Shown piece after piece: positions 5,344-16,524 of a stretch of 20,439 nt of DNA (its first letter is position 1; each line of letters begins with the position of its first letter). The notes beneath the pieces were generated by a model. That model made no database searches. It worked only from the letters and a program-made list of their open reading frames with translations, and had not been told where the DNA came from. Both the position numbers and the translations under genes were made by a program. Where the stretch lies: positions 1 through 20,439 of IMG/VR virus record IMGVR_UViG_3300044960_000614. One strand, given 5' to 3'. The stretch is from a virus.

Positions 5344-6047
5344 CAGCGCACCTCGTCGACGAGGCCGAACCGGAGGCACTCGTCCGACGAAAGCCACCAG
5401 TCCCGGCGGCGCCACCGGCGGCGGATCATGGCCTTCGTGAGCGGCTTGCTCGCCGTGCCGCGCTGCGCAGCCTCACGGCACCGGGAGGCGAAGATGTCGA
5501 GCACCCGCTCCTGGATGCGCTTCACGAACGCGACCTCGTCCTCGATCTCGCCGATCTTCCCCATCGCCAGCGTGGAGACTTCGTGGATGAGCACCCAGCA
5601 TTCGCGACCCATGACGCGGTGGTCGCCGGCCTGAAGCAGGATCCCGGCCATGCTGGCCGCCATCCCTCGCGCCGACGTGGTGATGCGATGGCCCTTGCGT
5701 CGGAGCTCCTGGATGAAGTCGAACAGGTCGAGGCCGTGGATGACCGAGCCGCCGGGCGAGTCGAAGACGATCTCCATGTCGCATCCTGGCTCCAGACGGG
5801 ACCAGGTGGTGAGCTGCTCGATGCACGCAGCGACGCTGGTGTCGCTCACCGGCTGGGTGAACTGGTAGACGCGGTGGTAGCGGTTCTTCGCGAGCTCCTC
5901 GAGGTGCTTGCGGCGCTCGGCCTCGAGACGTAGCGCTGCGACTTCGGCCTCGAGGGTTGCCCTGCGGGCCTCGGCCCGGAGCTTCTCGGCCTCTGCGAGC
6001 CGCCGCTCGCTCTCGGCCGCCAGCACGTCCGCGCGGGGGTCCTTCAT
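5343..6047 (-). CDS. ClpP-like serine protease
   Basis: This encodes 234 aa from ATG 6047, with GGAGGAG five bases ahead and ATGA coupling; the longer frame to 6224 is a shadow of the neighbour. Residues 8-55 are a Glu/Arg/Ala-rich coiled coil. The ClpP fold follows: IVFDSPGGSVIHGLDLFDFI (oxyanion region), then ARGMAAS132-MAGILLQAG with the nucleophile, VLIH155-EVST with the base, and RRRRD216-WWLSSDECLRFGLVDEV with the acid. All three triad residues are present, so it is probably active. In phages this family usually serves as capsid maturation protease beside the capsid gene, but here it is coded after the lysis genes, about 14 kb from the capsid gene, and has a coiled-coil extension. Confidence 0.88.
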   Translation of the reverse strand: MKDPRADVLAAESERRLAEAEKLRAEARRATLEAEVAALRLEAERRKHLEELAKNRYHRVYQFTQPVSDTSVAACIEQLTTWSRLEPGCDMEIVFDSPGGSVIHGLDLFDFIQELRRKGHRITTSARGMAASMAGILLQAGDHRVMGRECWVLIHEVSTLAMGKIGEIEDEVAFVKRIQERVLDIFASRCREAAQRGTASKPLTKAMIRRRWRRRDWWLSSDECLRFGLVDEVR

Positions 6048-6235
6048 GTCATCTCCTCCGGTCTCATCCGCGCCAGCCAGCGGCGCAGGCGGCGGGCTTC
6101 CCACCAGATGCGCACCCTCGACGGCCGCGGCGGCTCGGAGTGGCAGCACGGCTCCGGCGCGACGATGACGCCGTCCTCGAGGCGCAGGGTGCGTGGACGG
6201 TGGTGGGGACACCACGCGGTCCACGTCCAGGTCAT
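6044..6235 (-). CDS. Small Cys/His protein
   Basis: This encodes 63 aa from ATG 6235, with ATGA overlaps on both sides. The product starts MTWTWTAWCPHHRPRTLRL and has a second cluster PEPCCHSEPP, giving C9, H11, H12, C30, C31, H32 as a possible metal site. The C-terminal half is a basic amphipathic helix (RIWWEARRLRRWLARMRPEE). No family is recognised. It lies between the holin candidate and the ClpP-like protease, and could be a membrane-associated or metal-binding accessory protein. Confidence 0.55.
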   Translation of the reverse strand: MTWTWTAWCPHHRPRTLRLEDGVIVAPEPCCHSEPPRPSRVRIWWEARRLRRWLARMRPEEMT

Positions 6236-13263: not shown

Positions 13264-13562
13264 CAGCCGCTCCTTTCGTGCACGATAGGCGCGCGGTCAC
13301 GCGCGCCGCCGATGATGAGTGCGGGCGGGCGGCGCACCCCGTTCATGGCCCGCAGGCCCGTCTCCAGGTGCCGCAGCCGCTCCCACACGGTGGTGGACAC
13401 GATGACGGCTCCCTCGCCGTCGAGACGCAGGTGGTAGGTCTTGCACGGGTGCTCCACCGCGCAGAGGGGGCAGGTGTGTCGGCCCGCGAGCGGCCGCGAG
13501 GGGTCGGGCACCAGCAGCACGCAGCCGCGCAGGGTCGGGTGGACGAGCCGGACGCCGCTCAC
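13263..13562 (-). CDS. Small CxxC tail-region protein
   Basis: This encodes 99 aa from GTG 13562, overlapping the tape measure stop (GTGA), with GGAGG six bases ahead. A cysteine cluster HTC31-PLC34-AVEHPC40-KTYH lies in the middle, followed by LRLDGEGAVIVSTTVWERLR. The combination C-x2-C ... C-KTYHL ... G-VIVS recurs in small proteins next to phage tape measure genes. It probably binds zinc. Role unknown; location suggests a part of the tail tip or an assembly factor. Confidence 0.65.
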   Translation of the reverse strand: MSGVRLVHPTLRGCVLLVPDPSRPLAGRHTCPLCAVEHPCKTYHLRLDGEGAVIVSTTVWERLRHLETGLRAMNGVRRPPALIIGGARDRAPIVHERSG

Positions 13563-15736
13563 CAGCTGCCTCCGAACGAGTAGGCGACGTCCACCTGGTC
13601 GGTGAAGCGGCGGCGGTCGACGTGGAGGCGGACGTCGAGGCGCGAGGGAACAGGGGCCCGGCGACCGCGGAGCGGGACGACGGCCTCGGGTCCGCGCTCA
13701 CCGATGAGCGCGAGCGTCGGACGGGTGACGATGCCGCCCTCGGCCATCTCTGGGGTCTTGCCCGTCTGGGTGATGTTCATGCTGATCCCGACAGACGTCG
13801 GCAGGCGCGACAGCGCGGAGCTGATGCCGCCGATGGCGTTCTGGACCCCGCGCGCGGCGGACTGCGAGGCGCGCCACTTCGCCACGATCTTGTCGAACTT
13901 CTGGTCGTTGACCTTCGCGAGGCGATCGAGGATCGCTGCACCCTTGAGGCCCATCTCCGCGATCTGCTGCGCGAACTCCTCGGGCAGCCCTCGCGAGATG
14001 ACGGTCTCCCAGTTGGACTTGTAGTCGCGCAGCGCGTTCACCTGCTGCGTGAAGGACTTGATGAGCTCGCGCGCCGTGACCTTGCCGTCCTGCACGAGCT
14101 GGTCCAGCAGTCCGCTCACGTCGCGCAGGTCGTCGCCGATCTGCTTCCGCCAGGTGTCGAACTGCTCCTGCGTCATCCGCGCGAAGACGTGCAGGTCGCC
14201 CTTGGCGGCCTTGGCCTGGTCGCCGAGGCCCGAGAACGCGGCGGCCGCCTTGCCCGTGGCCGTGGTCGAGGCCTTCGCCGCCGCGATCCACCGGGCGGCC
14301 ATGAGCGCGTTCTCGCGCTGGATGTCGCGCGCACGGCCGGCCTCGCCCCGGTAGACCTCGGTGCCATCGGCGAGCGTGAGGATGGCCTGGTTCGTACTCG
14401 TTGCCTGCCACTTCAGGCCCGAGAGGCTCTCGTTGAGCTCGCTGACCTTGCGGTCGGCCTCGTCAGCCTTCAGCCCCCAGGCCGTCGCTGCGGCGACGAG
14501 CGCAACGAAGGCTCCGATGGGGCCGCCCATCGATCCAGCGAGCCCTCGCATCGCGACCGCGAGCCCGCCTGCCGAGATCTTGGCCGCCTCCATCGAGGCG
14601 GCGAGACCGAAGAAGAAGCTCTGCAGCTTGCGCCACGTCCAGATTATCGCGAAGGCCGCGGCGACCTCCATGAAGTGGTCCGAGACGACCCCGAGCACAT
14701 CGGCGAGGGCCGGCAGCACCGTCGCGCCGAGCTCCTGACCCTGGGTGCGGATGTCCTGCAGCGCCCTCGCGACCTGGAAGCTCGCCGACTGGGCCGTCTC
14801 CTTGAAGGCCTTGTCCAGCGAGCCGGTCGCGTCCTGCACCGCGCGGAACTGCTGCTCGACCTTCGCAGCCTCCTGCTGGGTGAGCCCGAAGGCACCCGTC
14901 AGCGCACGGATGTTCGGCACGATCTTGCGCATGACGTCGATGTTGCCGCCGGTGCGCTGCTCCAGGAGGCGGAGGGCGGCCAGGAGGCCCCGGTCGGCCA
15001 GGACGCGCCGCATCTCCTCCGCCGAGATGCCCACGGCCTCCATCGTCTTCGCCGCCTGCGTACCGGGCGCCTCGAGGGCCTGCAGCAATCCGCGCATGGC
15101 CGTGACGCCCTCGTTCACGTCCAGACCGATGTTCGACAGCGACGAGAGCGACGCGACGAGCTCGTCGAACTCGATACCGGCCTTGGACGCGATGGGCAGG
15201 ATGCGGCCGAGCGCGCTCGCGAACTCCTCCGGCTCGGCGGTGCCCTCCCGGACCGCAGCGACCAGGGTGTCGGTGACCTCGGTCGCCGTGAGACCCGAGT
15301 CGGCGTACGCGTTCAGGGCGTTGACGACGATCTTCGCGATGTCGGCGCTCTGGCCGAGCCCGACAGCCGCAGCGCGCGCCGTGCGGTCGAGCGCCTCGGT
15401 GACCTGCGCTGCCGACAGACCCGCCGAGCTGAGGAAGTAGAGCGCGTCGGCGAGCTCGGTCGGCGACTTCGCCGTCTCGCCCGAGAGCGCCAGCACCTGC
15501 TCGCGGAGCTGGCCGAGCGAGTCGGCCGAGGTGTTCGTCAGTGCACCGATGCGGGTGAAGGCCTGGTCGAACCGGAGCGCGGAGCGTACCGAGTCCACTG
15601 CGAACGCGGCGAAGGCCGCAGACGCGGCGCGCTTGAGCACCTCGAGCCGCTGCCCAAGGGTGCGCGAGGTCCGTTCGAACTCGCGGGTGTCACCGATGAT
15701 GCGGACGACGAGGGTACCGGCGATGGAAGACGGCAT
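13559..15736 (-). CDS. Tape measure protein (TP901-1-type)
   Basis: This encodes 725 aa from ATG 15736, GGGAG six bases ahead. The N-terminus is helical with a TP901-type core: RSALRFDQAFTRIGALTNTS, ELADALYFLSSAGLSAAQVT and IASKAGIEFDELVASLSSLS. Two hydrophobic stretches near residues 355-390 (AAAFAIIWTWRKLQSFFFGL) and 400-425 (GAFVALVAAATAWGL) could insert into the host membrane on DNA ejection. The C-terminus has the conserved AEGGIVTRPTLALIGERGPE motif. By the usual rule of about 0.15 nm per residue the tail would be near 110 nm. It follows the frameshifted chaperone gene, the canonical order. Confidence 0.93.
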   Translation of the reverse strand: MPSSIAGTLVVRIIGDTREFERTSRTLGQRLEVLKRAASAAFAAFAVDSVRSALRFDQAFTRIGALTNTSADSLGQLREQVLALSGETAKSPTELADALYFLSSAGLSAAQVTEALDRTARAAAVGLGQSADIAKIVVNALNAYADSGLTATEVTDTLVAAVREGTAEPEEFASALGRILPIASKAGIEFDELVASLSSLSNIGLDVNEGVTAMRGLLQALEAPGTQAAKTMEAVGISAEEMRRVLADRGLLAALRLLEQRTGGNIDVMRKIVPNIRALTGAFGLTQQEAAKVEQQFRAVQDATGSLDKAFKETAQSASFQVARALQDIRTQGQELGATVLPALADVLGVVSDHFMEVAAAFAIIWTWRKLQSFFFGLAASMEAAKISAGGLAVAMRGLAGSMGGPIGAFVALVAAATAWGLKADEADRKVSELNESLSGLKWQATSTNQAILTLADGTEVYRGEAGRARDIQRENALMAARWIAAAKASTTATGKAAAAFSGLGDQAKAAKGDLHVFARMTQEQFDTWRKQIGDDLRDVSGLLDQLVQDGKVTARELIKSFTQQVNALRDYKSNWETVISRGLPEEFAQQIAEMGLKGAAILDRLAKVNDQKFDKIVAKWRASQSAARGVQNAIGGISSALSRLPTSVGISMNITQTGKTPEMAEGGIVTRPTLALIGERGPEAVVPLRGRRAPVPSRLDVRLHVDRRRFTDQVDVAYSFGGSW

Positions 15737-15739
15737 GGA

Positions 15740-16122
15740 TCACTCCCGTGGCATGGCGCGCGCCAGGGCTTCGACCTCCCACATGCGCAGACGCCGGAGC
15801 TCGGAGACGGAGAGGTGGTAGAAACGGATGAGCGGGGCCAGCTCCTCTAGGAGCCGGCCCCGGTGGGGTTTGGGACGTCACCCCCTGGACGGATGACGGT
15901 GAGCTTCAGGCCGCGGACGTCCTCCACGGTCACCTCAGGGTACTTTCGCCGCAGGAGGACGTAGGCGATGGCCGTGAGCATCTTGGGCCGAAGCTCTCCT
16001 CGGCCGTACGCCTGATAGTCCTCCCAGCCGGCGATCGCGACGAGGTCCTCGTGGTCGCCGAAGGTCAGCTCCCCGAGCAGCTCCGGGCTCACCACGACCT
16101 CGACGTCCTCAGGAAGCGCCAT
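15740..16122 (-). CDS. G-T tail assembly chaperone fusion made by -1 frameshift
   Basis: The predicted product joins codons 1-85 of the zero frame (16122 to 15868) to a -1 frame starting again at 15868 and ending in TGA at 15742-15740, 127 aa in all. The T extension reads LLEELAPLIRFYHLSVSELR and then RLRMWEVEALARAM, the usual amphipathic pattern of T domains, and ends three bases before the tape measure ATG. The T part has no ribosome site of its own. By analogy with lambda gpG and gpGT, the fusion binds tail tube subunits through T and the tape measure through G during tail assembly and is absent from the finished tail. Confidence 0.88.
15834..15874 (-). promoter_or_regulatory. -1 programmed ribosomal frameshift signal
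   Basis: On the minus strand the heptamer C CCA AAC (15874 to 15868) has the canonical X XXY YYZ form and is in phase with the G reading frame. A 6-base spacer CCCACC follows (15867-15862). Then comes a 12-bp stem: GGGGCCGGCTCC (15861-15850) pairs with GGAGCTGGCCCC (15845-15834), with one G-U wobble and the loop TAGA. The zero-frame stop TAG (15849-15847) lies in that loop. Slippery site, spacer and stimulator are thus all present, supporting G-T fusion synthesis. Confidence 0.88.
15847..16122 (-). CDS. Tail assembly chaperone G
   Basis: The zero-frame product is 91 aa from ATG 16122, directly abutting the preceding TAG. It is a compact acidic-helical protein: LPEDVEVVVSPELLGELTF, then EDLVAIAGWEDYQAYGRGEL, then MLTAIAYVLLRRKYPEVTVE. 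The end (RPGGDVPNPTGAGS) is flexible and lies over the frameshift site. Length and position, just ahead of the tape measure gene, match gpG-type chaperones. It would coat the tape measure until tube polymerisation. Confidence 0.85.
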   Translation of the reverse strand: MALPEDVEVVVSPELLGELTFGDHEDLVAIAGWEDYQAYGRGELRPKMLTAIAYVLLRRKYPEVTVEDVRGLKLTVIRPGGDVPNPTGAGS

Positions 16123-16524
16123 CTACATCCCCCTCCTCACGGACAGACCAGACCGTGCCGCGATGCCGAGCAGCATCCGCAGGTAGTCCTCCTGCACACG
16201 CGGGATCTCGGCGGCGGCCGCCGCGGCGAGGAACGGGCGAGGCTGCGCGCGCGGCACGAACTTCGGGCCCCACTGCTGCACGCGCAGGCGACGGAACGAA
16301 CCTCCGGCCATGACCTTGACGACGTTCCGCGACGCCGATGGACGCGGCAGCGCGCCCCTGCCAGCCCCGACGTTGAGCGGCTTCGGCATCGCGGCGGCGA
16401 TGATGCGCTCGCCCAGCCTGCGGTTGTAGTCCTGGAGCTCGCGGATGAACTCGGGGTGGATACGAGCGACCGCGCGCGTGAGCTCGCGCACGCCGTCGAT
16501 GCGGACCTGCCAGGCCTCCGCCAT
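16123..16524 (-). CDS. HK97 gp10-like protein (neck/tail completion type)
   Basis: This encodes 133 aa from ATG 16524 (TGATG with the preceding stop). It has the layout of HK97 gp10-like proteins: an N-terminal helix pair (VRIDGVRELTRAVARIHPEF then IRELQDYNRRLGERIIAAA), a basic central region with GSFRRLRVQQWGPKFVP, and a PRPFLAAAAAAEI motif near the end, like the usual RPFLxPA. These proteins act at the head-tail interface. The order is unusual: most phages place this gene before the tail tube gene, while here it follows two tube genes. It could be a divergent relative with another role. Confidence 0.6.
   Translation of the reverse strand: MAEAWQVRIDGVRELTRAVARIHPEFIRELQDYNRRLGERIIAAAMPKPLNVGAGRGALPRPSASRNVVKVMAGGSFRRLRVQQWGPKFVPRAQPRPFLAAAAAAEIPRVQEDYLRMLLGIAARSGLSVRRGM

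Follow-up and report, generated by a model that had tools for sequence, protein, structure and literature searches.

A probable −1 ribosomal frameshift in a distant phiC31-type G/GT tail chaperone locus, with the stop codon of G inside a predicted hairpin

The window, i.e. the whole 20,439-base IMG/VR virus fragment that was analysed, carries head and tail genes on its minus strand, with family matches to a major capsid protein, connectors, two major tail proteins and a tape measure protein. The major tail protein is followed by one gene (16126-16521), then by the short reading frame G with its −1-frame extension T, and then by the tape measure gene (Table 1). This is the phiC31-type gene order, and in phiC31 it is gp40 that takes the place between the major tail protein and G. 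The major tail protein families are matched by two neighbouring minus-strand genes, 17669-16959 (phrog_9522) and 16934-16524 (phrog_10528), and the phage may therefore assemble its tail from two related tube proteins. A gene for a ClpP-like serine protease (5346-6149, minus strand) lies downstream of the tail genes and not next to the capsid gene.

Table 1. Features of the chaperone locus, with positions given on the window.
Feature	Position	Strand	Remarks
G, putative short tail assembly chaperone, 91 aa	15847..16122	-	phrog_17335 'tail protein', E 3e-6
T, −1-frame extension, 42 codons plus stop	15740..15867	-	G+T fusion of 127 aa
Tape measure protein, expected partner of G/GT	13559..15736	-	phrog_991, E 5e-44; PF10145, E 8e-31
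SD-like sequence AGGGGGUGA, containing the −1-frame TGA 15880-15878	15878..15886	-	duplex energy with 16S tail −14.3 kcal/mol
In-phase heptamer C CCA AAC, slip site of the first-pass annotation	15868..15874	-	not kept in relatives
In-phase heptamer A AAC CCC, more likely slip site	15865..15871	-	position matches the heptamers of relatives
Predicted stimulatory hairpin, 13 bp, CGGGGCCGGCTCC / GGAGCTGGCCCCG, 4-nt loop TAGA	15833..15862	-	fold prediction
Stop TAG of G in the zero frame, within the hairpin loop and 15 nt past CCC	15847..15849	-	offset equal in 21 sites

The −1 frame ends at a TGA (15742-15740), which leaves a gap of 3 nt before the tape measure ATG at 15736. The first-pass annotation, made from the sequence of the window alone, had described a −1 frame open for 42 codons, ending three bases before the tape measure gene and giving a fusion of 127 aa, and this description was exact. 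It had however missed the upstream −1-frame TGA listed in Table 1, which shuts the −1 frame and therefore confines any −1 shift to the 28 nt between 15877 and 15850. GC contents at the three codon positions were 0.76/0.44/0.88 in the T region past the stop of G, read in the −1 frame, and 0.76/0.42/0.87 in G itself, i.e. the −1 frame beyond the stop has a coding-like composition that matches that of G.

The family matched by G, phrog_17335, also takes in the phiC31 gp41/42 fusion (E 3e-61). G is 35% identical to its phiC31 counterpart over 71 residues, and the GT fusion is ∼30% identical to the gp41/42 fusion over about 122 residues in an alignment that crosses the junction and scores 47.8 bits; G alone reaches 37.4 bits. 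The homology of T, as reached by a −1 shift, to phiC31 T comes from this alignment through the junction. T alone gave no PHROG match and no blastp match to phiC31, and its profile score is not independent because the T of the window was itself part of the profile. In the phiC31 database record gp42 is annotated with 'ribosomal slippage'. The proposal that a G-T frameshift operates at this locus is thus backed by fusion homology to phiC31 gp41/42, by synteny and by the coding-like −1 frame, and on these sequence comparisons the window carries a distant member of the phiC31-type G/GT chaperone family, which probably uses the known G-T frameshift trick.

Useful relatives came from searches with the major tail protein and with a six-sequence chaperone alignment. 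The fusion protein as query in viral contigs, the tape measure protein as query for relatives, a two-sequence alignment as query in viral plus genome contigs and the exact DNA pattern of the cassette all gave no match. The annotated phage collection held distant G/T relatives only, and a cassette of the type seen in locus L101 was not found among annotated phages. A heptamer survey of the relatives identified through the major tail or major capsid protein returned many chance matches; only sites whose T abuts a long ORF were kept, and most of these are from other families of chaperones, with GGGAAAA or different motifs. In one relative, L002, the major tail protein is 93% identical to that of the window whereas GT is about 31% identical; its cassette is the same, with A AAC CCT, a T ORF abutting the tape measure ATG and a predicted 17-bp hairpin.

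Two overlapping slippery heptamers, CCCAAAC and AAACCCC, lie in phase within the 28-nt shift window. The first of these had been annotated as the slip site, whereas the second had gone unmentioned; although CCCAAAC is present and in phase, the annotated slip is probably placed a codon too far upstream. At the AAACCCC position the heptamer is A AAC CCT in L002 and G GAC CCT in all of the phiC31-like phages examined, whereas the CCCAAAC position holds the non-canonical GCCAAAC in L002 and the heptamer is absent from the phiC31-like phages, so that the motif common to the relatives is R_RAC_CCY, one codon downstream of C_CCA_AAC. The annotation had regarded relatives without heptamer and stem as evidence against it; CCCAAAC shows this pattern, while AAACCCC and the complete cassette do not. 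By our own reading of the anticodons, a shift from GAC to GGA keeps the first pair with G:U at the second, a shift from AAC to AAA keeps the first two pairs, and CCY to CCC is cognate, so re-pairing at GGACCCT and AAACCCY would be similar. Since the relatives keep R_RAC_CCY and re-pairing appears similar, we place the slip one codon downstream, and A_AAC_CCC is the probable slip site rather than C_CCA_AAC. GGACCCT is non-canonical as an X_XXY_YYZ heptamer, and equating it with AAACCCC therefore rests on the position and re-pairing arguments.

GGACCCT was also seen in phase before chaperone-like −1 frames in distantly related phages (L101:12868, L103:10245, L064:8612, L171-L177 and L136-L170) and, judged from these occurrences, may be a non-canonical −1 slip motif that recurs among GC-rich phages. 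Searching the literature for frameshifting at GGACCCT returned nothing relevant. Transcriptional slippage is unlikely, as no homopolymer in the shift window is longer than CCCC.

RNA folding, a check that the first-pass annotation had proposed, predicted a structure downstream of the slip site more stable than all of 200 shuffled sequences (MFE z = −3.0). The annotated 12-bp stem with one G-U pair and a 6-nt spacer from CCCAAAC was right, and becomes 13 bp with a 5-nt spacer when the flanking C-G pair is counted; the stop codon of G does lie within the loop, UAGA (15849-15846), as had been claimed. The strongest 40-nt folds on the coding strand, seen in 11 of 10,200 sliding windows over the 20 kb, fall at two places, and this predicted hairpin is one of them. 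The other strong fold is a 12-bp hairpin (GGAGGGGCCGGG/CCCGGCCCCUCC, 19425-19398, minus strand) directly behind the stop codon of the major capsid gene (19436), and is possibly a terminator or an mRNA-stabilising element. A pseudoknot between the loop UAGA and a downstream UCUA was considered and rejected, because a 4-nt loop is too short for the H-type and the UCUA lies within conserved F-Y codons. The SD-like sequence upstream of the slip site is predicted to be paired within an upstream hairpin and serves no start codon in the T frame; it was weighed as a stimulator, but is not clearly kept at the same place in the relatives.

The relatives differ in how the stop codon is folded. In L002 the UGA straddles the top of the stem and the loop of its predicted hairpin, which is the strongest in its 4.5-kb locus (z −4.7). 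L101 and L171-L177 have GGACCCT and, 12 nt further on, a UAG that falls in the upper stem of a predicted 13-bp hairpin; the stem of this hairpin is kept while its loop varies. In L101 the predicted fold over the 101-nt region is only mildly unusual (z −1.9). For the phiC31-like phages the prediction is a weak 5-bp hairpin; in some members its 4-nt loop contains the stop, and in phiBT1 the hairpin is broken. The phiC31-like L136-L170 also have a long, strong predicted hairpin with a ∼20-bp stem, which starts ∼24 nt after CCT and beyond the stop of G. Because the stems of the window and L002 are in different registers, their hairpins are not homologous base by base. On fold prediction, a hairpin around the stop appears to recur in three lineages and is not universal. 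Conservation of the cassette, to which the annotation had pointed as a check, was partial: CCCAAAC is not kept, and a strong stop-spanning hairpin is predicted in L002 and, less exactly, in L101 and L171-L177.

The distance from RAC_CCY to the stop was exactly 15 nt in 21/21 distinct sites (the window, L002 and 19 phiC31-like phages), with TAA, TAG and TGA all in use. The phiC31-like sites come from close relatives and so are not independent cases; it is the distant pair, the window and L002, that is informative. A constant offset alone is not unusual, since in another chaperone family the stop lies 6 nt after GGGAAAA in four groups. On these alignments, it is the stop position that is constant across the group, and not the placement of the stop in a loop. 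The distance to the in-frame stop serves as a predictor in PRFect, whose authors give a mean of 26 nt for their phage set (PMC10885494). A zero-frame stop inside a predicted stimulatory structure near the slip site, as in the loop here, is a feature of the SARS-CoV-2 type. The SARS-CoV-2 zero-frame stop sits in stem 1, five codons downstream, and its removal halved frameshifting (PMC8168617); frameshifting falls if the stop is moved or removed, and lower initiation partly rescues it (PMC8168617). The explanation given is that without a near stop the trailing ribosomes meet unfolded RNA (PMC8168617). The earlier suggestion that termination at the nearby stop could alter the stimulator seen by following ribosomes thus has a precedent, by analogy, in that virus.

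Taken together, we give a probability of about 0.88 to programmed −1 ribosomal frameshifting at a G/GT tail assembly chaperone of the phiC31 type. What the sequence analysis shows is the open reading frames, the heptamers, the hairpin as a fold prediction, the homology of the fused reading and the constant stop position. At CCA.AAC.CCC, the Asn- and Pro-tRNAs would move back one base on A_AAC_CCC (AAC to AAA, CCC to CCC) as the ribosome presses on the 13-bp hairpin, if it forms in the cell, just ahead, with or without aid from the upstream SD-like sequence. A slipped minority would then read the hairpin in the T frame and produce the GT fusion, and the non-slipping majority would terminate at the TAG in the loop and produce G. 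We infer the chaperone function of the two products and the efficiency of the frameshift; by analogy with lambda, G and GT would bind the tape measure protein and T would recruit the major tail protein.

The same fusion protein would be made if the slip instead took place on C_CCA_AAC, a perfect in-phase X_XXY_YYZ heptamer with a near-ideal spacer of 5-6 nt to the full 12-13 bp stem. After AAACCCC the spacer to the predicted stem is 2 nt (0 in L002), shorter than usual, and the first few pairs of the stem would need to be opened by the ribosome. However, the relatives do not keep CCCAAAC but conserve the next codon, and AAC to AAA would here be a non-cognate re-pairing in the A site, which bacterial ribosomes disfavour (PMC4066793). 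We therefore regard a slip on C_CCA_AAC as the lesser possibility, one deserving only a minor share of belief. It is very improbable that T is made without any frameshift, as a separate protein by termination-reinitiation at the stop of G: although some phiC31-like phages have a GTGA overlap at this stop, and some records (Shawty, Euratis) annotate T there as its own gene, the window, L002 and phiC31 have no T-frame start codon at the stop, and the fusion alignment runs through the junction.

A different objection to the preferred reading, a frameshift at A_AAC_CCC ahead of a stimulatory hairpin, is that dual coding in GC-rich sequence could have given rise to the hairpin as a by-product, and that the stop would sit in its loop by accident. 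By our own estimate, given a hairpin of ∼30 nt and a stop nearby, about one in ten codon positions would fall wholly in the 4-nt loop; moreover, the right arm of the stem is constrained by T coding, and the non-homologous pairs of the window and L002 would fit such an origin. Against this, the two loci build strong hairpins around the same stop in spite of their different registers, the hairpins are among the strongest folds of their respective sequences, and the L171-L177 set retains the stem while the loop varies. An origin of the hairpin as a by-product is accordingly judged unlikely, although less so than reinitiation.

Comparison with relatives has thus corrected the slip site and yielded a natural set of sites in which the stop position is constant but the structures differ. 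With such a set one could ask in bacteria what is already established for coronaviruses, namely whether frameshift efficiency is set by where the zero-frame stop lies. A doubtful extension, which we put forward as a joint proposal, is that the stop is held 12-15 nt after R_RAC_CCY because termination at the hairpin apex would reset the hairpin, tuning G:GT to ribosome load, and that GGACCCU/AAACCCY would form an under-recognised class of sites acting via proline-tRNA re-pairing (CCY to CCC).

As in the window, lambda has a short chaperone G and a −1 fusion GT encoded upstream of the tape measure gene, and its slippery sequence, GGGAAAG, differs from that of the window. G/GT frameshifting is found in lambda, where the slip is low-level, and in most long-tailed phages (review PMC5009743). 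The likeness to SARS-CoV-2 ORF1a/1b is a zero-frame stop inside a stimulatory structure, five codons past the slip site; that system belongs to an unrelated eukaryotic virus and has a pseudoknot with the stop in a stem, whereas the window would have a simple predicted hairpin with the stop in the loop. The Streptomyces phages phiC31, phiBT1 and TG1 (gp41-gp42) differ from the window in their heptamer (G GAC CCT against A AAC CCC), in a fusion identity of only about 30%, and in having a predicted small stop-containing hairpin and/or a large one further on where the window has one 13-bp stop-centred hairpin. They share with it homologous G and T in the same gene order, a probable −1 shift at RAC.CCY, a zero-frame stop exactly 15 nt after CCY and a T that ends shortly before the tape measure gene.
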